Source of the DNA: Phycisphaerae bacterium
GTDB lineage: Bacteria > Planctomycetota > Phycisphaerae > UBA1845 > UTPLA1
DNA: 64,000 nucleotides
Reading direction: 5' to 3'
Assembly: GCA_019636475.1 (NCBI GenBank)
Contig: JAHBXN010000001.1
Span: 310,001-374,000 of the forward strand
Below, in pieces: positions 37,291 through 47,571 of this stretch (its first letter is position 1; each line of letters opens with the position of its first letter). Below the pieces are notes generated by a model that was given only the letters and a program-made list of their open reading frames with translations, did not search any database and was not told the DNA's origin. The position numbers were made by a program, and so were the translations under genes.

Positions 37291-38658
37291 GTGTTCCCCG
37301 ATCAGCCCGATTCCATGATGCCGGATGCGACCGTGAATAGCAGACTGGATCCTCCAGCCAAGCCGCCGGTTCAGCGGGTGTCGTACATTCGGCACATTTT
37401 TGCACTGCTCCTGGTCTTCGGCACGATCGAAGCGGCGCAGCAGCGGGGCATTGCATGGTTCGACTGGACCGCTTCCACCGGATTGAATCCCGCGTTTCAG
37501 GAAGCATGGGCCTGGCGAATCGGCCGGCTCGACCTGCGCTATCGCCTGCTCGACGCCGCGTATCTGCCTGAGGTGCAGCGAGTCTACAACGTCTATCCGC
37601 CGCTCATCACGCTCATTACATACCTCGCCGTGTGGATGGTTCCCGTCGAAACAGCGATGCCTACGCCTGAATCGATGCCGGCATTTCACATCCTGCCGCT
37701 GATCGTATTCGGAATTTCAGTGCCGCTGACAGCATACGCCGTGTTCTTCAGACGGACTCGAAGCGTGGCCGCAGCCGCTTTGCTCACACTGGCACTTGTT
37801 GGCGGCTCAGCGGTCATGCCCTGCATTGCGGCCGCCCGGCAGGACTACATCTATCACCAGAATCACTTGCTCTCGCAAGTCGGGCTGCTACTGTTGGCAG
37901 GAGAATTGTTCGGGAGACGCCGCGCATGGGTCTTGTTGGTCGGTCTATTGATCGCCGCGTGGACGAGGCAACTCACCATTTTCTTCGCACTGCCGATCTT
38001 GTATGTCCTCGCCACTTCAATCGCGCGGCTTCAGCACGGGGACCAACCTGCGATGGCCGACGTCAGTTCCCTCCGATTCGGTAAGCTCGCATCACTCGCG
38101 ATCGGAATCGCGTTTATCGTGTGCGTCCCTTTGGCGATGAATCAAGCGAAATTCGGAAATGCGTTCGACAGCGGCTATCAGCACCTTTACCACGATCGGA
38201 CCACCCCAGCCGCCATCAATGCGCGCCAGTATGGCCTTTTCTCACCTCACTTCGTCGGCATGAATGCTTATTATATGAATACGGCGCTCCCGTTCAGCTT
38301 CGACGACGACAACCGGATTCGTTTCGATCCGTCTCCGCACGGTACCGCCCTCTGGTTCACGACGCCGATCGCGTTGCTTGCAGTCATCGGCATTTGCCGA
38401 AAGCCTCGAGATCAGGTTGCCTTCGCACTGTGTGTTGGCTCCATGCCGATCGTGCTTGCGCACCTGTTTTATCACAACACTGGCTATGTTCAGCATGGCT
38501 ACTACCGGTTTGCACTCGATTACCTGCCGGTCTGGCTCGTTGCTGCGGCTCCGTGGCTTATGAGAGGGCGACAGCGCTGGCTTTCCACCGCATGCATCCT
38601 GTGGAGTGTGGCGTATTTCGCCTACCTGCGGCACGCCTTGCCATCAACGGCGCTATAG
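37291..38658 (+). CDS. Polytopic membrane protein, first of three paralogues
   Basis: The protein has 455 residues and about ten membrane helices. The GTG at 37291 or the ATG at 37315 could start it. No catalytic motif is recognisable. It shares landmarks in the same order with the genes at 39420 and 40739: WRIGRLDLRYR near the N-terminus, RVYNVYPPLITLIT, MNQAKFGNAFDSGYQHLY in a loop after the middle helices, and FYHNTGYVQHGYYRFALDY near the end. The general look (periplasmic loop after helix 1, many helices) is reminiscent of GT-C glycosyltransferases, but I cannot show it. It precedes nuoE. Confidence 0.75.
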   Translation: MFPDQPDSMMPDATVNSRLDPPAKPPVQRVSYIRHIFALLLVFGTIEAAQQRGIAWFDWTASTGLNPAFQEAWAWRIGRLDLRYRLLDAAYLPEVQRVYNVYPPLITLITYLAVWMVPVETAMPTPESMPAFHILPLIVFGISVPLTAYAVFFRRTRSVAAAALLTLALVGGSAVMPCIAAARQDYIYHQNHLLSQVGLLLLAGELFGRRRAWVLLVGLLIAAWTRQLTIFFALPILYVLATSIARLQHGDQPAMADVSSLRFGKLASLAIGIAFIVCVPLAMNQAKFGNAFDSGYQHLYHDRTTPAAINARQYGLFSPHFVGMNAYYMNTALPFSFDDDNRIRFDPSPHGTALWFTTPIALLAVIGICRKPRDQVAFALCVGSMPIVLAHLFYHNTGYVQHGYYRFALDYLPVWLVAAAPWLMRGRQRWLSTACILWSVAYFAYLRHALPSTAL

Positions 38659-38773
38659 CGAAGCAAGTCGCCCGCCCCCGTAAGGACGTGCGTTCCTGCC
38701 GTCGATCGGTTAGACTTCGGCCCGTGTCGCGAGCCTTCGAATCATCGCGATCGATCGAGATTTGAGGTGTTAC

Positions 38774-39418
38774 ATGGCTTGGCAGGCAATTGACCGCCGC
38801 ACCCCCGTGTTCGACTCCGAAGCGCCCCCGTCGCTCAGCGAAACCGTGCGTGAGAAGATTCGTTCGTTCCTTCCCCGCTACGAGACCAAGCGCGCCGCCC
38901 TGCTGCCGGCGCTTCATGTGGTACAGAACACGCTGGGCCACATCAGTTATCAGGCGATGTCCGAAATTGCGGAGCTCCTCGAGATTCCACCCAGCGCGGT
39001 GCTCGATACGCTCACGTTCTACACCCACTTCTGGGATCACCAAAAAGGCCGGAAGGTCATTGTGGCCTGCCGAAGCCTGTCCTGCCAGGTCATGGGTGGC
39101 GATGCCGTTCTCGCTGCACTCAAGGACGAACTGAAGATCGAGGAGCACGGCACCACAGCCGACGGCAGCTACAGCCTGCTCACGGAAGAGTGCCTCGCCG
39201 CCTGCGATCATGCTCCCTGCATGCTGATCAACGAGAAATTGCACAAGTCCGTAAAGCCGGACGATGTGAAGAAGATTCTCAAAGACCCGAAAAACGATCA
39301 AATCGCGCCGCAAAGGTCCGATCTTTTCGATCCCCCTTCACAAGCCGTCGGCGACGGTGGCGACGCCACGAAGATCATCGAAAAGACGTCCGACATTCAG
39401 GAGATGCGGGAGTCGTGA
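38774..39418 (+). CDS. nuoE: NADH-quinone oxidoreductase subunit E
   Basis: This is the thioredoxin-like [2Fe-2S] subunit of the NADH-oxidising module of complex I. The protein has 214 residues, from the ATG at 38774 with GAGG upstream. Cluster ligands: CRSLSC (C-x4-C) and CLAACDHAPC (C-x3-C). A roughly 45-residue polar C-terminal extension (from DPKNDQIAPQ) is beyond the usual end. nuoF follows only after two membrane-protein genes, which is unusual because nuoE and nuoF are normally adjacent. Confidence 0.94.
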   Translation: MAWQAIDRRTPVFDSEAPPSLSETVREKIRSFLPRYETKRAALLPALHVVQNTLGHISYQAMSEIAELLEIPPSAVLDTLTFYTHFWDHQKGRKVIVACRSLSCQVMGGDAVLAALKDELKIEEHGTTADGSYSLLTEECLAACDHAPCMLINEKLHKSVKPDDVKKILKDPKNDQIAPQRSDLFDPPSQAVGDGGDATKIIEKTSDIQEMRES

Positions 39419-39419
39419 C

Positions 39420-40742
39420 TTGGCAGATCCCGCCGCGAATCAGAATCCGCGGATCGGCTCCGGCAAGCCGCAAGCGAGACATGTCGCCCTGATCTTCGGT
39501 CTCATGGCGGTCGGCGTTTATCTGACGGCGGGGCCTCGCCTACAACTTTCCGAATGGCGTGTGGCGCCGGACGTCAATCCCAATGTCATTGAAGCCATGG
39601 CCTGGCGACACGGCCGCCTCGACCTCCCCGTCCGTTCCGCCCACCCTGAACGCGCCGGCCAGCGACCGCTCGATACGGCCGTGCGAGAGAATAAAGTCTG
39701 GAACGTCTTTCCGCCGCTCTTCACATTCATAACTTACGGCGCACTGACACTTCAAGACTGGCAGGGCGTCGGCTCCGACGGCGACTCCGTCTTCCATCCC
39801 GCATGGTATGTCGCAATCGTGGCACTCCCACTTCCGCTCGTCGCATTCTGGGCCTTTTCGCGGGCCGCATCCTCGGCCGGTCTTCGATCGAACGGCCATT
39901 CCGCCTATATGACCGCCGCTGTTCTTTCAGCCTACCTCATTCTCGGGACGCCCCTGCTATTGATTCTCGAAGGCTGTCGCGACGGGTCCGTGGCAGTGAA
40001 TCAGGTCTTCGCCACGGTCGGTTTACTGCTCGTCGCCGGCGATCTGCTCGGCAATCGAAGGATCTGGCCGGCCGCGATCGGTTGCACCATCGGGCTGTGG
40101 TCGCGTCAACTGACCGTGATTTATCTGGTCGCGGTGGCGTGGACCGCCTGGTCGGCCGCCGCAAGCGCACGATCTCGCCGGATCCGGATGACGGTCGTTG
40201 CACTCGCCGCGTGCATGGGCTTCGGAAGCGTCGCTACGCTGAATGAGTTGAAATTCGGCTCGCCGTTTGAAAGCGGCTACGGTCTGATCTACGAGGGCCG
40301 TGACGACGTTTACGCTCGTCGCTATGCCGAATTCGGCCGCGCGTTCGATCCGAGATTCATTCCGCGCAACGCATGGCACATGTGGGCGGCTCCTCCGATG
40401 GTGGAGCCACGCGGCTCACTCGCAATTCGCGTCACGGGAGATCCGGACGGTGCGGCATTCTGGTATGCATCTCCGCTGCTTCTCTACGTGCTGTTCGACG
40501 CGCGCCGATGGTGGCGCGATTCGGATCGGCGCGGCCTCATGCTCTGTTCAATGGCAGTGATGCTTGCTTTGCTGTGCTATCACAACACCGGTTCCGTTCA
40601 ACGGGGGTTTCACCGTTTCGCGATGGACTTTGTTCCGATCTGGCTGGCAGTAATCGCCCCGGATCTCTTTAACGGCCGGCGAACATGGATTACACTCGGC
40701 CTGCTTGCTTATAGCGCCCTCTACTTCCATCTGATTGCATGA
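39420..40742 (+). CDS. Polytopic membrane protein, second of three paralogues
   Basis: The protein has 440 residues if it starts at TTG 39420, just past the nuoE stop with GGGAG upstream; the frame also opens earlier, inside nuoE. It shares the paralogue landmarks AWRHGRLDLPVRS, KVWNVFPPLFTFIT, LNELKFGSPFESGYGLIY and CYHNTGSVQRGFHRFAMDF. It has about ten hydrophobic helices. It overlaps the third paralogue by four bases (ATGA), so these genes are translationally coupled. No enzyme motif was recognised. Confidence 0.75.
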   Translation: MADPAANQNPRIGSGKPQARHVALIFGLMAVGVYLTAGPRLQLSEWRVAPDVNPNVIEAMAWRHGRLDLPVRSAHPERAGQRPLDTAVRENKVWNVFPPLFTFITYGALTLQDWQGVGSDGDSVFHPAWYVAIVALPLPLVAFWAFSRAASSAGLRSNGHSAYMTAAVLSAYLILGTPLLLILEGCRDGSVAVNQVFATVGLLLVAGDLLGNRRIWPAAIGCTIGLWSRQLTVIYLVAVAWTAWSAAASARSRRIRMTVVALAACMGFGSVATLNELKFGSPFESGYGLIYEGRDDVYARRYAEFGRAFDPRFIPRNAWHMWAAPPMVEPRGSLAIRVTGDPDGAAFWYASPLLLYVLFDARRWWRDSDRRGLMLCSMAVMLALLCYHNTGSVQRGFHRFAMDFVPIWLAVIAPDLFNGRRTWITLGLLAYSALYFHLIA

Positions 40743-42001
40743 GTGCCGCGATTCCGACATCCCCGAAAAACGAATCACGGCTCCGCGCGATGGGCTGCTT
40801 CGTACTCCTCGCAGTTGCACTGAACGTGTCCCTTGGCGACAAGGTGCGACTCTCGCAGTGGCATGTTGACTCGGACGTCAACGCCGCCGTCGCCGAAGGC
40901 GCCGCTTGGCTCAATGGCCGGCTCGACATACCGTTTCGAGGCACAGACGCCTCAAACGCCGATGAACGACCGTGGGACACCGCCGCATTCGACGGAAAAG
41001 TCTATAACGTGTTCCCGCCTCTGGTCGCCTTGCTGACCGTGGTACTGCACCCGCTACATTCGATGCTGCTCGGTCTACCCGATGGTGTCTGGTCGCCTTG
41101 GACGTTCGCCTGGCTGGTCTATTGGCCGTTGCCGATCACTGCTTTCCTCGTCTTCAGGCGGCGCGTGGGTGACTCGGCATGGGGAGCATTACTCGCGTTT
41201 GGATTCATCGGGGCAACAGCCGTTTATCCGAATCTGCAACTCACCGGCCGCGGACTGCTCGGCCAGATGAATCACACCCTCTCAGGCATCGGCCTGCTGA
41301 TTCTTGCGGACGACCTGCTCGGGCCGCGCCGCTTCTGGCCGGGACTCATCGGCCTGTTTATCGCGACCTACACTCGTCAGGTCACCCTTCTTTACGGGCT
41401 GGCATTAATATGGGCGGCATGGCATTTCCGCGGACCGAAGATGGCGGCGGGCTGCCTTGGAGCCATTATCATCATTGTGGCACCGCTTCTGATGCTGAAT
41501 CAGGCGAAGTTCGGCAGTCCGTTCGAATTCGGCTACAAGTACATTTACGTCGGCCGCGATGATGAATTCGCCCGAAACTGCGCACAGTATGGCGTATTCT
41601 CGCCCCACTTCCTGCCTGGCAATGCATGGTTTATGCACCTGGCCTTGCCGGAACTGGCCGAGTTGGACCCCAACAGGCTATTGATCCGCGAAGCCAACCC
41701 GTATGGAACCAGCATCTGGATCACGACGCCGCTCCTTCTGCTCGTCCTTTGGAATGCCGGCACCTGGTGGTCCAGCCTGGCCGGCCGTGCCATGATGCTA
41801 TGCACTTTGCTCATCATGGCGGTGCTCTTATGTTATCATACCCCCGGACACTGGGGGCATGGTTACAGCCGATTCGCGATGGATTTCATCGTGATCTGGT
41901 TGGTTGTAATCGCACCGCTGACGCGCGGATGCCGTCGAACGCCGGCCACGCTGGCCTGCATCGCATGGAGCGCGTGGTATTTTCAGTGTCTCAAGGTGTA
42001 A
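40739..42001 (+). CDS. Polytopic membrane protein, third of three paralogues
   Basis: The protein has 420 residues; its ATG overlaps the previous stop (ATGA). Paralogue landmarks: AWLNGRLDIPFRG, KVYNVFPPLVALLT, LNQAKFGSPFEFGYKYIY and CYHTPGHWGHGYSRFAMDF. About ten membrane helices. About 95 bases separate it from nuoF. The family's role is unknown. Its place inside the nuoE-nuoF run suggests either simple insertion or some link to the membrane energy chain. Confidence 0.75.
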   Translation: MSAAIPTSPKNESRLRAMGCFVLLAVALNVSLGDKVRLSQWHVDSDVNAAVAEGAAWLNGRLDIPFRGTDASNADERPWDTAAFDGKVYNVFPPLVALLTVVLHPLHSMLLGLPDGVWSPWTFAWLVYWPLPITAFLVFRRRVGDSAWGALLAFGFIGATAVYPNLQLTGRGLLGQMNHTLSGIGLLILADDLLGPRRFWPGLIGLFIATYTRQVTLLYGLALIWAAWHFRGPKMAAGCLGAIIIIVAPLLMLNQAKFGSPFEFGYKYIYVGRDDEFARNCAQYGVFSPHFLPGNAWFMHLALPELAELDPNRLLIREANPYGTSIWITTPLLLLVLWNAGTWWSSLAGRAMMLCTLLIMAVLLCYHTPGHWGHGYSRFAMDFIVIWLVVIAPLTRGCRRTPATLACIAWSAWYFQCLKV

Positions 42002-42096: not shown

Positions 42097-43455
42097 ATGG
42101 ACAAACCCATGCCAAAATATGAACCCGTCCTGCTCAGGAATCTCGGCGTCGAAAACATCCGGTCTCTCAAGACCTACCAGTCGCGCGGCGGATACGAAAC
42201 CGCCAGGAAAGTCCTCACCACCCTGACGCCCGATGCCGTTATTGAGACAGTCAAGGCGAGCGGCCTGCGCGGCCGTGGCGGCGCCGGTTTTCCCTGCGGC
42301 ATGAAATGGTCATTCCTGCCACCCAACCGCGAAGTGACATACCTCTGTGTCAACGCAGATGAATCGGAACCGGGCACCTTTTGCAATCGCGTGCTGATGG
42401 AGGAAGACCCGCACCAACTGCTCGAGGGCATTCTTATCTCCGGCTATGCGACTCGCACGACCACCGCATATATCTACATGCGAGTCGAATTCCACGAGCA
42501 GTTCCACATCCTCCAGAAAGCCCTCGACGAAGCCTACGCCGCCGGTTTCTTCGGCAAGAACATCTTCGGCACCCCCTTCTCCATGAACTGCTACATCCAT
42601 CGCGGCGCGGGCGCCTACGTCTGCGGCGAGGAGACCGGCCTCATCGAAAGCCTTGAAGGCAAGCGGGGGTGGCCGCGGATCAAGCCGCCCTTCCCAGCCA
42701 TTGAAGGTCTCTTCCGCCGCCCCACCGTCGTCAACAACGTCGAAACCCTCTGCTGCGTCGTTCACATCTTCGAACGCGGCGCGGAATGGTTCAAATCCAT
42801 CGGCACCGAAGGCTCCGCCGGGCCGAAGCTCTACACCCTCAGCGGCCCGGTCAACCGCCCTGGATGTTTTGAAGCGCCCCTCGGTCTTTCATGCCGGGAA
42901 CTTATTTTCGGCGACGACTACGGCCGCGGCATGAAAGACGGCAAGCGCGTGAAAGGCTGTATCCCCGGCGGGCTGTCGGTTGGCGTTCTCACGGAAGCCG
43001 AGCTCGACTGCAAGCTCGACTTCGACGATGTCCGCAAGTACGGCCTGCTCGGTCTCGGCACCGCCGGCGCGATCGTCATTCCCCACGATGCCGACATCCG
43101 CCAGGTGCTGGCCAACATCACGCGGTTCTACAGTTCCGAAAGCTGCGGCCAGTGCACCCAGTGCCGCGAGGGCACCAACTGGGCCTACAAGATCGCGTTG
43201 CGCATCGCCCTTGGCGCCGGCCGCATGACAGACCTGGACCTGCTCGAAGAGATCACGACCAACATGGGCATGATGCCCGGCCTCTCGATCTGCGGCCTGC
43301 CGGACGGCGCCTGCTTCCCCATCCGCACCATCGTCCGGAAGTTCCGCGCCGAATTCGAAGACCACATCCGCAAGCAGGAACCCCACCGGGTGGAGACCGT
43401 CCTCAAACGCCTGAACCCGGCGACGTACGAGTTGCCGATTCTGGGGGCTCGCTGA
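42097..43455 (+). CDS. nuoF: NADH-quinone oxidoreductase subunit F
   Basis: This is the FMN and NADH-binding subunit of complex I. The protein has 452 residues from ATG 42097 (42109 is an alternative; the TTG at 42073 is less likely). The FMN/NADH region has GLRGRGGAGFPCGMKW and VNADESEPGTFCNR. The [4Fe-4S] ligands are in ESCGQCTQCREGT plus a later Cys in SICGLPDGACFP. Its last 135 bases (43321-43455) are repeated at 44140-44274. No nuoG follows; instead an accessory region begins. Confidence 0.95.
   Translation: MDKPMPKYEPVLLRNLGVENIRSLKTYQSRGGYETARKVLTTLTPDAVIETVKASGLRGRGGAGFPCGMKWSFLPPNREVTYLCVNADESEPGTFCNRVLMEEDPHQLLEGILISGYATRTTTAYIYMRVEFHEQFHILQKALDEAYAAGFFGKNIFGTPFSMNCYIHRGAGAYVCGEETGLIESLEGKRGWPRIKPPFPAIEGLFRRPTVVNNVETLCCVVHIFERGAEWFKSIGTEGSAGPKLYTLSGPVNRPGCFEAPLGLSCRELIFGDDYGRGMKDGKRVKGCIPGGLSVGVLTEAELDCKLDFDDVRKYGLLGLGTAGAIVIPHDADIRQVLANITRFYSSESCGQCTQCREGTNWAYKIALRIALGAGRMTDLDLLEEITTNMGMMPGLSICGLPDGACFPIRTIVRKFRAEFEDHIRKQEPHRVETVLKRLNPATYELPILGAR
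43321..43455 (+). repeat. Direct repeat copy A (3' end of nuoF)
   Basis: 135 bases, including the nuoF stop codon, align without gaps to 44140-44274 at an offset of 819 bases. By eye there are 10 mismatches (about 93% identity), half of them within the first 30 bases. Similarity stops at the stop codon. This copy belongs to intact nuoF. Confidence 0.95.
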
Positions 43456-43556: not shown

Positions 43557-43838
43557 GTGTTCGATCGAATCTTGAAAAAGATGCGAGAGTTGATCCGTAC
43601 CGGTCAATACATCGCCACAACCCACGCGCTCGACGAGATGGAAGCCGACGGCCTCATCATTTTCGATGTCGAGCATTGCATCCTGGCTGGCCGAATTCTG
43701 GTGCGCCAGAAGGATCGCATGACCGGAGAGTGGAAATACGTGGTGGAAGGGCCGGCGCTCGACCACAAGCTTATTCACGTCGTTGCAAAAATCGGGCCCA
43801 CCGGTAAGCTGATCATTATCACGGTCTATCGGGTGTAA
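43557..43838 (+). CDS. DUF4258 protein, probable toxin of a toxin-antitoxin pair
   Basis: The protein has 93 residues and a GTG start about eleven bases after GGAGA. The DUF4258 pattern is visible: RTGQYIATTHALDEMEADGL, CILAGRILVRQKD and an ending of beta strands LIHVVAKIGPTGKLIIITVY. The family resembles RelE/MqsR-like folds and is often found next to YgiT-type zinc-finger proteins, as here (17 bases to the next start). It is flanked by the duplicated nuoF end, which marks it as recently arrived. Confidence 0.75.
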   Translation: MFDRILKKMRELIRTGQYIATTHALDEMEADGLIIFDVEHCILAGRILVRQKDRMTGEWKYVVEGPALDHKLIHVVAKIGPTGKLIIITVYRV

Positions 43839-43854: not shown

Positions 43855-44091
43855 ATGGTGTGCGACATCTGTGGAAACAAGAAGGCCCGCGTCCGCCGAA
43901 TCACGCGCAGCTTCGGTCGCGGCCGCTCGACGTTTCTGATCGAAAACGTGCCGGTCGTTTCCTGCCCATCCTGCGGCGAAAGCTACCTGACGGCCGCCAC
44001 GCTGAAGGAAATCGAGCGCATCCGCCTCCACTGGCGCGAGCTGGCGGTCGATACCAACATCCCATTGGCGAAGTTCGAGGGCGCGGCCTGA
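43855..44091 (+). CDS. YgiT-type zinc-finger protein, probable antitoxin
   Basis: The protein has 78 residues. Two zinc-binding pairs, CDIC at 3-6 and CPSC further on, bracket the typical YgiT strand RITRSFGRGRSTFLIENVPV. A short helix region follows (TLKEIERIRLHWRELAV). The C-terminal helix-turn-helix of full-length MqsA is absent, as in many short YgiT proteins paired with DUF4258. It probably neutralises the product of the gene just upstream and may autoregulate the pair. Confidence 0.78.
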   Translation: MVCDICGNKKARVRRITRSFGRGRSTFLIENVPVVSCPSCGESYLTAATLKEIERIRLHWRELAVDTNIPLAKFEGAA

Positions 44092-44139
44092 CAGCGGAAA
44101 CAAGGGACCTGCTGCTTGGCCAGTGGGCCGAAGGGCTTC

Positions 44140-44274
44140 ATCCGCACGATCGTCCCGAAGTCCCGCGGAGAATTCGAAGACCACATCCGCAAGCAGGAGC
44201 CCCACCGCGTGGAGACCGTCCTCAAACGCCTGAACCCGGCGACGTACGAGCTGCCGATTCTGGGGGCGCGTTGA
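44140..44274 (+). pseudogene. nuoF: Direct repeat copy B: orphan 3' fragment of nuoF
   Basis: 135 bases, about 93% identical to the end of nuoF and translating in the same phase to the NuoF C-terminus (EFEDHIRKQEPHRVETVLKR, then LNPATYELPILGAR and stop). There is no start or upstream domain, so it is a remnant. Identity is perfect in long blocks (44170-44198 and 44209-44250), arguing for recent duplication or continuing gene conversion. It lies at the far side of the DUF4258/YgiT cassette. Confidence 0.93.
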
Positions 44275-44330: not shown

Positions 44331-45674
44331 TTGGCTGACTATCGCAAGAACAAGACCACGACCCCGCGCGGAGTCTTGATTGGTGGACAAGATCGCCCAG
44401 GGCTACCTCGGGTCCTTGCCTACGCACTTCCCAAGGTCGCAATAAAATCAGGGGACCGCATCATTCATGACCTAGAGCGCATTACTCTCTATGCTGCTCC
44501 ATTAGGTCATCCGAAGTCATTCCTTGATTTTGACGCAATCGTGTTGTATGCCGGGATCTTCGAACAACGTTCACCGGGTAGTTACGACTATATTGCCTAC
44601 ATTCGCACGGATGTGCGAAACGCGAGCGACCTTAATCGCAGAGATCATGAGCTTAATACTTGCATTGACGAAGATCGGCCCATTATCTTTCTAGTTCCAG
44701 ATCTACCTCGAAATGTGGGCTACCCTGCGACGGACGACAATGACCTCTTTAGGCGATTCCTTAACCGCAACGAGTTTGAATGGTATCACTCAAAGCAGCC
44801 CGAAACTTTCGAGGCAGAGATTCCAGAATTCGAGGAGTATCTTCGCAGGCATGGAGTCGCGCATGTTGGATTTAAATTCGGCGACGAGATAATAGATTCA
44901 ATCGTCCCCATAAATGACAGCAAGAGGCACTGCGTCGCATGGGAGTTTTTGCAACGGATTTTTGTCCTTCCCGCCCGTGAACCATCGGATCAAGAGGACG
45001 CGATTTCCATTGCCGAATCCGCCGTCGAATCTGTACTAAACTACCGCGAGCGTTTGGTCAAACAACTCCCGAAATGGACTGCGGAGTATCGGTCTCAGCG
45101 GGAATCCTTGCTACTCGACAGTATCGCTTCTATTTCTGCCCAACTCGATAAGTCAAAGGAAGAGTTGGCGGATATCGAAGCCCGCAAGAATCTCCTGACG
45201 CAAAAAAGTGATCTCTTAGTTTTTCACGTTGCAAAGCTCCTTGAGGAACAACTTGGCTTCAAGATTCAAAAGGACGACGTCAAGATCCAAGACGCATCGA
45301 TCCTCGACGACAATGGCGGCATTCGCGTGGTGGTCGAGGTAAAAGGCTCTTCTGGCTCCTTTGGCTTGAAAGAAATTGGACAGGTTGATTCCCATCGCAA
45401 ACGCGTCAATCTTGATCCAGGTACTCTTGGCTGGCTAATCATGAATACGAAACTTGGCGCGACCTCGCTTCAAGAAAAGCAAGACGATCGGCCAGTCCCC
45501 GACGTGCAGCAAAGAGCCAGAGACGACAACGTACTTCTGATAAAGACTCTTGACCTTCTAATGTGTGTCGATCTAATTGAGCGAGGAATCTTAGACCGTG
45601 AAGAACTTTCGGCAACTCTCCTTGGTTCCAACGGCTGGCTCCATGTCGAGGACGATCGCATCGTCGTCGAATAA
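44331..45674 (+). CDS. Predicted PD-(D/E)XK nuclease with central coiled coil; unknown N-terminal domain
   Basis: The protein has 447 residues. The TTG start lies seven bases after GAGGA. The N-terminal ~215 residues look alpha/beta (FDAIVLYAGIF, YDYIAYIRTDV, RPIIFLVPDLP) but match no family I know. A coiled coil spans about 240-295 (RESLLLDSIASISAQLDKSK). The C-terminal domain has the order of a Mrr-like nuclease: LLEEQLGF (Glu 305/306), SILDDNGG (Asp 326/327), VVVEVKG (Glu336-x-Lys338) and GQVDSH (Gln351). GC is visibly low (27 of 60 at 45121-45180), which suggests transfer. It lies upstream of and co-directional with the FRG-domain gene. A defence role is a hypothesis. Confidence 0.65.
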   Translation: MADYRKNKTTTPRGVLIGGQDRPGLPRVLAYALPKVAIKSGDRIIHDLERITLYAAPLGHPKSFLDFDAIVLYAGIFEQRSPGSYDYIAYIRTDVRNASDLNRRDHELNTCIDEDRPIIFLVPDLPRNVGYPATDDNDLFRRFLNRNEFEWYHSKQPETFEAEIPEFEEYLRRHGVAHVGFKFGDEIIDSIVPINDSKRHCVAWEFLQRIFVLPAREPSDQEDAISIAESAVESVLNYRERLVKQLPKWTAEYRSQRESLLLDSIASISAQLDKSKEELADIEARKNLLTQKSDLLVFHVAKLLEEQLGFKIQKDDVKIQDASILDDNGGIRVVVEVKGSSGSFGLKEIGQVDSHRKRVNLDPGTLGWLIMNTKLGATSLQEKQDDRPVPDVQQRARDDNVLLIKTLDLLMCVDLIERGILDREELSATLLGSNGWLHVEDDRIVVE

Positions 45675-45780
45675 GCTCGCCCAAGCCGTTTTCGACAGAT
45701 GTCCACCAGACTGCCTCAGATGCAAGAGGCACGAATAAATGCCTGTCCGATTGACCAAAGTTGGGAGAAGCGGCTGACAA

Positions 45781-47139
45781 ATGGATGCGTGGTCTTTATG
45801 GCAACGGTACCGGTCCATACAGATGGACTCATGGGGCCCGCATCGACTTTTTGCAGGTATTCTTTCGTGCCAAAACTCAGTAGGACTTTCGGGCAAAGAA
45901 ATCTCAGACTTCATTGGACAAAACCTTGAACCCGGCGTTGTGCCAGGTTTTCTCACTGCTGGCTCAAGTACTGTAGTGCCCGACGCAGCGAGTGCCGCCC
46001 TCTGCTTACACCTTGACCAGGAAATCTCTCTTCAGGCGTGCGGCTGTCCAAAGGTCTACCGTGGTCAGGCTGACGTGGATGGATGGACAATTCAACCCAG
46101 TATTGATCGCTTCATGAAGTCAGACGTACGGGAGCATCTTAGGCAGTTATATGCAGCTACTATATTCGCTCTCGTGCTGTACGAAATAAATTGGTATGCG
46201 TCAGAAAGGTTCGAGAAGGCATGGCACTTGGACCAAAATACCGCAATGTCGATGGCACGACATCACGGATTCGCGTCGCCGCTAATTGACTTCACCACTG
46301 ACCCTTCCTTAGCGGTTATTATGGCCCACAAGCAGGCGGTGTGCGGAAACGCGGAATTCGCGTGCGTCTACAGCTTCGAAGTCGACAATGATGAATTCAA
46401 GTTTACTTCAACCATTCCTCCGCCCCCCATGCTAAGATCGGCCCGCCAGCACGCCGTTTACTACTCCAGCCAAGTTCCAGGGGACGAGCCGAACATAGGC
46501 GGATCATACAAGATCAGATTTCCTGCCTCGTCGAAGATGCTAGGAGACACGGCGCTTCTTCGAGACAGTAAAGAGACCGATATTTTCCACGCTGACCCAC
46601 TCTTATCGAGGCTTGAGTTAATCGTTCGCGATCTCATGCGTACCATGCCTGTAGCTGCGATCAGCTACGAGTCGGCGGAACTCGCGAACCCCAAAATGGT
46701 CCCTGATTCCCTGAAGCAATTTGCAAAGTCAATACTCTTGACGCTCGTTGATGAGAAACTACTGAGTGATGAAGACGGCAGATTTCGATACTGTTCGCCA
46801 GACGAGGCTACACGGGAGTGGTTCCTCGTAGTTACCGATATCTTGCACTCGCTCTTGGGGGTTCAATGGCATGACGCCGGGAAGTTTTCATTTAGAAGCA
46901 GCATGATTAATCGCTTCGTACGCGATAACTGGATTACCGTGCAGATTTACTTGTATATCTTTATGACCAGATGCCGCGGAACACCCCTCGAATCCCTCAA
47001 AACCATAATAAAGCCGTTGAACACAAGAATCCTCGAGATTTCAGACGGCAGGTGTGGGGTGATCGACCGCGAACTAATCATGGAGGGTGCGACTCTGGAG
47101 ATAGGCAAGGGGATAACCTGGAATAAGGTAGAGCGTTAG
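45781..47139 (+). CDS. FRG-domain protein
   Basis: The protein has 452 residues. The FRG domain is recognisable from VYRGQADVDGWTIQPSIDR (Y-R-G-Q at 93-96) through SMARHHGFASPLIDFTTDPS (His pair 161-162, Asp170) to IMAHKQ. This is the typical F/Y-R-G-Q ... H-x-G-x-x-x-x-x-x-D layout. The N-terminal ~90 and C-terminal ~200 residues have no known domain that I can name. Base composition is low in GC (25 of 60 at 46141-46200), like the gene 106 bases upstream, so both probably arrived together. FRG domains are frequent in prophages and defence neighbourhoods, with unproven activity. Confidence 0.72.
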   Translation: MDAWSLWQRYRSIQMDSWGPHRLFAGILSCQNSVGLSGKEISDFIGQNLEPGVVPGFLTAGSSTVVPDAASAALCLHLDQEISLQACGCPKVYRGQADVDGWTIQPSIDRFMKSDVREHLRQLYAATIFALVLYEINWYASERFEKAWHLDQNTAMSMARHHGFASPLIDFTTDPSLAVIMAHKQAVCGNAEFACVYSFEVDNDEFKFTSTIPPPPMLRSARQHAVYYSSQVPGDEPNIGGSYKIRFPASSKMLGDTALLRDSKETDIFHADPLLSRLELIVRDLMRTMPVAAISYESAELANPKMVPDSLKQFAKSILLTLVDEKLLSDEDGRFRYCSPDEATREWFLVVTDILHSLLGVQWHDAGKFSFRSSMINRFVRDNWITVQIYLYIFMTRCRGTPLESLKTIIKPLNTRILEISDGRCGVIDRELIMEGATLEIGKGITWNKVER

Positions 47140-47303
47140 CTGCTTGAACAGAAGACTCTGATTAGGCTAGCGTCGGGGCGCTTCTACGGCTCATTGGGTA
47201 AGGAGATCAGATCTCAGTGCCTCCGTAGGTGGCTTCTTGTCCTAAGCCGGAATTCCTCAAACACGAGCAGGTTACCGATCGTCCGTAACCCCCTCCGCCC
47301 TGC

Positions 47304-47408
47304 CCGTCACCGGTTCACAGGCACTTGTCGCCGGTTACGAACGATTCGTAACCGGTTACGGGCGGCTCGTCACCGGTTCGAGGCCGCTCGTCACCGGTTC
47401 GCGCGATC
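47304..47408. repeat. 21-bp tandem array I (five units)
   Basis: Units start at 47304, 47325, 47346, 47367 and 47388 with no indels. The common core is TCGTCACCGGTTCG or a variant (GCCGGTTACG, AACCGGTTACG). Units 4 and 5 share their first 14 bases exactly; the others are degenerate. The period is an integer of seven codons. Confidence 0.88.
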
Positions 47409-47445
47409 GGCGAACCGGGTGCCGCCAGGCCGTCACCGGGCGGGG

Positions 47446-47571
47446 ATCATCCCCGCCGCACCTTCTTTCATCCCCGCCGCTCCTTCTTTCGCTCCCACCG
47501 CTCGTTTCTTTGCCCCCGCCGCTCCTTCTGTCATCCCCGCCGCCCGGTTCGTCGCTCCCGCCTCACCCGGC
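47446..47571. repeat. 21-bp tandem array II (six units)
   Basis: Units start at 47446, 47467, 47488, 47509, 47530 and 47551. The core is ATCCCCGCCGCTCCTTCT with variants; the last unit is the most degenerate. The unit sequence differs from array I, yet the period is identical. Confidence 0.88.

Follow-up and report, generated by a model that had tools for sequence, protein, structure and literature searches.

A candidate Mrr-like nuclease gene and a divergent FRG gene in a low-GC stretch behind nuoF of a Phycisphaerae bacterium

Several described systems resemble parts of a two-gene locus that lies behind nuoF in a Phycisphaerae bacterium (assembly GCA_019636475.1). In Shedu (SduA, DUF4263), a variable N-terminal part and a C-terminal PD-(D/E)XK nuclease are joined in one protein, according to PMC12839542, which also describes auxiliary PD-(D/E)XK nucleases that lie next to or inside BREX and DUF499-centered systems; Hma was named in PMC8565338. 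PMC9503650 assigns the FRG domain to the ART superfamily and regards it as a possible NADase effector. The locus considered here sits in a 64-kb stretch of DNA (positions 310,001 to 374,000 of contig JAHBXN010000001.1; hereafter, the window), which is part of an 819-kb contig in a genome of 4.4 Mb. Its two genes, which we call gene A and gene B, were put forward in an original prediction, made from the DNA letters alone, as a candidate new two-gene defense module of a nuclease and an FRG-domain protein. The reading toward which we lean, by a little, is that they are acquired defense cargo, in which gene A would be a self-contained sensor-effector nuclease and gene B an FRG effector added beside it.

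The two predicted open reading frames (ORFs) are present, are read in the same direction, and are separated by 106 bp. The features of the pair are as follows.

44331..45674, + strand: gene A, 447 amino acids (aa), with an unassigned N-terminal region, a coiled-coil linker, and a candidate Mrr-like PD-(D/E)XK nuclease domain
45177..45620, + strand: putative nuclease domain of gene A, aligned with eight relatives
45781..47139, + strand: gene B, 452 aa, with an FRG domain at residues 92-184 and N- and C-terminal extensions without assignment

Gene A begins with TTG behind a GAGG sequence, and gene B begins with ATG. The G+C content (GC) of both genes is low, as had been proposed from short samples, and this holds over their whole lengths: gene A has a GC of 0.498 (49.8%; z -4.1) and gene B a GC of 0.509 (50.9%; z -3.7), compared to 0.598 (standard deviation, 0.024; minimum, 0.543) for the remaining 39 of the 41 ORFs that were called mechanically in the window and reach 150 aa or more. 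The two genes are at the bottom of this set in GC and also in GC at third codon positions (GC3). Among the 60-base samples on which the proposal had rested, the count for nuoF (43/60 at 42601-42660) is exact, while the counts of 27/60 and 25/60 came without a stated location; four new samples gave 24-34/60. No terminator-like site was found on the + strand between 43400 and 47900, and a promoter scan returned 0 hits versus 2.6 expected by chance, which is uninformative. Degenerate repeats with a 21-bp spacing occupy 47287-47562, just past gene B and where the low-GC stretch ends on its downstream side.

Gene A is divided into an N-terminal region without assignment (residues ~1-215), a coiled-coil linker (~216-284), and the predicted nuclease domain (~285-415). 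In an alignment of gene A with eight relatives, Glu336 and Lys338 are kept in all nine sequences; their codons, at 45336-45338 and 45342-45344, belong to a run that reads E-V-K, and the residue numbers given originally are right when TTG is counted as residue 1. Asp294, Gln351, and an acid at column 327 are each kept in eight of the nine, and Leu296, Val297, Ile370, Asn372, Ala396, and Thr406 in all nine. The motif of gene A itself is composed of Asp294, an acid at 326/327, Glu336-x-Lys338, and Gln351, and the acid ... (D/E)-x-K ... Q/K pattern of PD-(D/E)XK nucleases is found among the relatives. The order Glu, Asp, Glu-x-Lys, Gln, as first proposed, holds for the acid at 327, for Glu336/Lys338, and for Gln351, but the acid of the first helix is Asp294 (eight of nine) and not a Glu, positions 305/306 being variable. 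Identity to the three close relatives is 46, 41, and 38% in the nuclease region, 40, 29, and 23% in the N-terminal part, and 25, 22, and 17% in the linker.

No model in Pfam, NCBIfam, PHROGs, or the 2023 PADLOC set represents the gene A family. The top library matches of gene A are weak, and both fall in its coiled coil (a Nuf2-like model of Pfam, E of 0.28; PbeC of PADLOC, E of 0.011); NCBIfam and PHROGs returned no match to gene A, and Pfam returned none to its nuclease domain. In a profile comparison, the nine-sequence alignment, compared in default mode to an Mrr_cat alignment of 20 sequences from related genomes, scored 29.7 (P of 4.9e-4), versus a mean of 11.9 and a maximum of 19.3 in 150 column shuffles. 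Control scores were 13.4 and 12.3 for reversed alignments, 11.6 for an FRG alignment, and 13.8 for SduA, and under another option set the Mrr_cat comparison gave a score of 19.9 (P of 8.2e-4). Two distant members of the family have subthreshold matches, one to Mrr_cat (E of 0.031; Streptomyces) and one to CoiA_nuc (E of 0.059). The conserved motif and the profile match are consistent with the prediction that gene A is a candidate Mrr-like PD-(D/E)XK nuclease, in which the nuclease domain would follow an N-terminal region without assignment and a coiled coil. Like Mrr-type restriction nucleases (PF04471), gene A has a helix acid, an (E/Q)-x-K strand, and a following Gln helix in register; unlike gene A, which has Glu before x-Lys, the Mrr_cat sequences mostly have Gln, and the N-terminal part of gene A differs from theirs. 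The build of gene A also recalls that of Shedu, but neither Pfam nor PADLOC gave a match to SduA_C (PF14082)/DUF4263 at E values up to 1, and profile comparison with three SduA_C sequences (a fourth had dropped out of the alignment because of its length), a weak test, gave a P of 0.31.

The family is thinly scattered. In a search of 392 genomes of the phylum with one sequence, gene A found only itself, and the same type of search in 120 related genomes, that of the window included, gave one full-length match, in the genome G495 (39% identity). A two-row profile run on 397 genomes of the class identified four full-length members, namely, those of the window, G495, G586 (32% identity), and G565 (26% identity), and a four-row profile applied to 60 genomes around G586 and 57 around G565 recovered only the two centers. 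Left out as relatives were matches in 24 other genomes at E values up to 10 (best, 0.007) in the one-sequence search and in ten genomes at E values of 8e-4 to 0.1 by profile, the latter mostly in coiled coils or short stretches. More distant members were reached stepwise: tblastn with the G565 protein led to Fusobacterium vincentii (E of 5e-6), the Fusobacterium protein to plasmid proteins of Klebsiella, Serratia, and Streptomyces, and a Klebsiella protein to Pantoea and Synechocystis. The plasmid location of these distant relatives is partly a sampling effect, since the searched collection consists of plasmids, and the Fusobacterium record (2.1 Mb, filed as a plasmid) is probably a chromosome. 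A one-sequence search of plasmids, phages, viral contigs, and genome contigs detected no close homologue of gene A (a phage match at an E of 0.9 was ignored), the two-row profile on genome contigs found only L055, which is the same contig as that of G495, and viral scans, run with the profiles as well as with one close relative and two distant ones, found nothing. This patchy occurrence (one of 392 phylum genomes with one sequence, four of 397 class genomes by profile) is among the observations in favor of reading gene A as a candidate portable defense nuclease.

The surroundings of 11 relatives, a prophage-like element among them, share no constant partner gene, and recognized defense genes lie next to or near five of them. 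The G586 relative stands in a co-directional run, between a DprA-like gene and HmaB; the order is HmaA, phosphoribosyltransferase-like, DprA-like, gene A relative, HmaB, TIR, AbiL-like ATPase, and HmaC (L068, 838-15923). PADLOC identified HmaA (E of 1.7e-191), HmaB (E of 7.9e-129), HmaC (E of 3.6e-120), and the DprA-like gene as PsyrA (E of 1.1e-57), while the phosphoribosyltransferase match is borderline (26.1 bits versus 26.3). In G495, a NucS/YhcG-like nuclease gene lies upstream of the relative, and a 176-aa DUF1156 ORF lies ~500 bp downstream. The G565 stretch contains an integrase, DUF3987, and a borderline phage-adaptor match; a metallophosphatase with a match to an effector model of PADLOC (E of 1.2e-17) is encoded on the opposite strand, two genes upstream of the relative, and the gene downstream of this relative encodes a 328-aa protein without assignment. 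A divergent KAP ATPase gene (PDC-S20, E of 7.1e-53) adjoins the Fusobacterium relative, and on a K. michiganensis plasmid the relative directly follows pifC and PifA (PifA E of 2.1e-261; L083, 1538-6762).

Gene B matches PF08867 over residues 92-184 (43.2 bits versus a cutoff of 25; E of 7.9e-11), in agreement with the predicted FRG domain with extensions, and its (F/Y)RG motif is Tyr93-Arg94-Gly95. Like the PDC-S15/FRG single-gene candidates of PADLOC, it matches nine PDC-S15 models at E values up to 0.01 (best, 1.1e-12) in addition to Pfam FRG; it differs from them in its divergent core (Pro167 and Asn137) and long extensions. When aligned with 15 other FRG sequences, high-scoring picks from FRG loci, gene B keeps Arg94-Gly95, Arg110, His161, and Asp170 and lacks the full set of near-invariant FRG residues. 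Judged by these matches, gene B is a genuine but divergent FRG protein. It is the sole FRG match in its own genome; a search of the phylum with gene B returned two weak FRG-domain matches besides itself, and no homologue was found in plasmids or viral contigs. Among titles and abstract openings of papers on the FRG domain in the library searched, there was no paper on a pairing of FRG with gene A or on a test of FRG chemistry.

No second pairing of the two families was found in our sample. FRG matches occur in 50 of the 392 phylum genomes, that of the window included, and gene A in one. Outside the window there are 60 FRG places, of which 56 were covered (all except G316, G020:C170, G324, and G213), 51 of them with up to ~6 to 9 kb on each side, often ended by the contig, and five with ~1.5 kb. 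The full-length gene A profile had no match at any of the 56, no FRG gene lies near any of the 11 gene A relatives, and an FRG profile from which gene B had been left out matched gene B alone in the window and no gene at 10 of the relatives, the eleventh (G586) having been covered in a separate analysis. An antisense-ORF match (E of 0.013), obtained in a single-sequence gene A search of 39 FRG loci, 29 of them with ~1.5-kb flanks, was dismissed as chance. The idea of a recurring module of these two families is not supported in this sample, and we conclude from the neighborhoods that the gene A family would not need an FRG partner.

The low-GC stretch starts shortly downstream of a duplicated end of nuoF. 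The features of this junction are as follows.

43557..43838, + strand: DUF4258 protein, toxin-like half of a toxin-antitoxin-like pair (E of 5.5e-14)
43855..44091, + strand: MqsA/YokU-like Zn-finger protein, antitoxin-like half (below the Pfam cutoff)
44139..44274, + strand: second copy of the 3' end of nuoF (136 bp; 93% identity to 43320-43455)

The final 136 bp of nuoF (43320-43455) and the second copy have 10 differences and stop at the same stop codon, and the window contains no third copy. The DUF4258/MqsA-like pair sits between the two copies, and this duplicated flank suggests that the pair arrived by an event at the 3' end of nuoF. The neighboring toxin-antitoxin-like pair had been part of the original prediction; its DUF4258 half is confirmed, while the MqsA/YokU-like half (E of 4e-4 to 8e-4) stays below the cutoff. 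An empty-site comparison drew on twelve family members with nuoF, ten of which were fetched. Neither the pair nor genes A and B were seen in ~12 kb behind nuoF in these ten, and the downstream flank differs from that of the window in all of them, so the insertion site is not definable. Compared to the second copy, the 3' copy joined to nuoF is closer to the relatives in seven of the ten, equally close in two, and farther in one. The PADLOC scan covered four ORFs of the window, and defense genes elsewhere in the window are possible. Before nuoF, at 37291-41998, three mutually similar genes (37291, 39357, and 40739) are interleaved with a NuoE-like gene, and all three are matched by the same ORFs of relatives.

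If genes A and B are acquired defense cargo, the N-terminal part and coiled coil of gene A, which change faster, would probably sense infection or act as a scaffold, and upon infection the C-terminal Mrr-like PD-(D/E)XK domain would cut DNA, either that of the phage or, as an abortive response, that of the host. Gene B would serve as a second effector, whose FRG domain, as a member of the ART superfamily, would most likely act on NAD+ or transfer ADP-ribose; it would have been added beside gene A and would not be an obligate partner. Since the gene A family has other neighbors elsewhere, A and B are probably not one fixed machine.

Several observations weigh against defense cargo of this kind. 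The Mrr match weakens when the Streptomyces member is removed (score of 20.0, P of 0.022), and it disappears when only the four closest sequences are compared (score of 12.6, P of 0.25). PDB sequence searches gave matches at E values of ~1 or none, with no notable relative, and AlphaFold2 models built from two sequences each were too poor to use (predicted local distance difference test [pLDDT] of 40.5 for the whole protein and 38.4 for the domain); the order of secondary-structure elements in them is compatible with a restriction-nuclease core and was given no weight. The window locus yielded neither an integrase nor an empty site. Gene B has Pro167 and Asn137 where all 15 comparison sequences have Arg and Glu, respectively, and for three of the 56 FRG genes, a nuclease-type gene of another kind is found at a distance of 7 to 51 bp, which speaks for a link between FRG and nucleases. 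The predicted defense-island setting draws support from the foreign composition and from the five relatives described above, but six of the 11 have no recognized defense gene beside them, and their neighbors are toxin-antitoxin, IS1, phage, DNA ligase/polymerase, and metabolic genes. Two Klebsiella plasmids carry the relative with a RelE/NadS pair, and another Klebsiella copy is flanked by copies of IS1; the Streptomyces copy is near DNA ligase and dnaE, the Synechocystis copy stands alone on a plasmid among metabolic genes, and the Pantoea copy stands alone among phage genes on a 92-kb plasmid, which we take from its gene names to be P1-like.

It is conceivable, though on balance unlikely, that A and B form one functional unit in this lineage, in which the FRG protein would make or destroy an NAD-derived signal, modify a target, or back up the nuclease, both genes being needed for full protection. 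The shared strand, the 106-bp spacing, the equally foreign GC, and the lack of a terminator-like site between 43400 and 47900 on the + strand would all fit such a unit, as would the three FRG genes with same-strand nuclease-type neighbors. The nuclease-domain profile, applied to the FRG places, gave one weak match, in G198 (12.4 bits; E of 0.006 to 0.015, depending on search size), and none in ten sets of shuffled ORFs. This G198 ORF has a PD...ECK core and lies 7 bp upstream of the FRG ORF on the same strand (L119, 1585-3931); because a helicase-like ORF is found just upstream in another frame, it is probably a helicase-nuclease remnant. The FRG gene of G080 is followed, 51 bp downstream on the same strand, by a gene whose 324-aa coiled-coil product contains a VEMK core (L135, 5951-7789) and which, by a loose motif and by eye, we take to be PD-(D/E)XK-like. 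In G359, a 1185-aa protein encoded 27 bp upstream of the FRG gene on the same strand (L039, 7657-12312) is presumably a type IIG-like methylase-nuclease, again by a loose motif and by eye. The three cases keep a functional link between FRG proteins and nucleases open, and a looser recurring association of FRG with various nucleases is possible; the theme of a nuclease paired with FRG may recur with nucleases of other types. The neighbors in G198, G080, and G359 are of different types, however, and a loose nuclease motif is not significantly more common beside FRG (9/46 same-strand genes within 250 bp of FRG versus 48/394 other ORFs; Fisher P of 0.17). Also speaking against one unit are the changed near-invariant residues of gene B and the counts given above, 0/11 relatives with an FRG gene nearby and 0/56 FRG places with a full-length A-type gene. 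A more elaborate scheme, which we regard as rather improbable, is that FRG proteins are repeatedly recruited beside unrelated nucleases and that at this locus an NAD-derived signal, made or removed by gene B, is sensed by the N-terminal part of gene A to release its Mrr-like nuclease; an NAD-signal-gated restriction system would then have been formed from a nuclease that works alone elsewhere.

Two of the three close relatives of gene A lie in or beside Hma/DUF499 loci, where auxiliary nucleases are known, and gene A could be an accessory subunit that was orphaned when an Hma (DUF499/DUF1156 BREX-related) system lost its methylase, helicase, and ATPase. The next recognizable downstream gene is DUF1156 in both: in G586, where HmaA, HmaB (DUF1156), and HmaC (DUF499) are all present, the methylase gene abuts the relative, and in G495 it is the short ORF ~500 bp away. 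That ORF (L054, 1046-1573) ends in low-complexity sequence and is possibly a truncated or broken methylase gene. We consider such an origin doubtful. The genome of the window (G000) has no DUF1156, and searches with HmaA, HmaB, and HmaC of G586 matched nothing in the window, nothing at another 9 relatives, and only the DUF1156 ORF in G495; the window locus, with no relatives of HmaA, HmaB, or HmaC, is in this respect unlike Hma and BREX-related systems. Moreover, a C-terminal NOV_C domain with an E-x-K motif is already part of HmaA in G586. A role for gene A as a nuclease of DNA repair or recombination, with none in defense, is likewise improbable: the PD-(D/E)XK fold class includes repair enzymes, and the Streptomyces and Synechocystis copies have the ligase, dnaE, and metabolic neighbors noted above, but the very patchy occurrence, the foreign GC, and the defense genes beside or near five of the 11 relatives argue against it.

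The gene A family extends over planctomycete genomes and records of Fusobacterium, Klebsiella, Serratia, Pantoea, Synechocystis, and Streptomyces. If gene A protects alone, a portable sensor-nuclease would join the list of those known, and Hma systems would gain a candidate auxiliary effector. The idea that FRG proteins systematically accompany nucleases can now be put to a concrete test.

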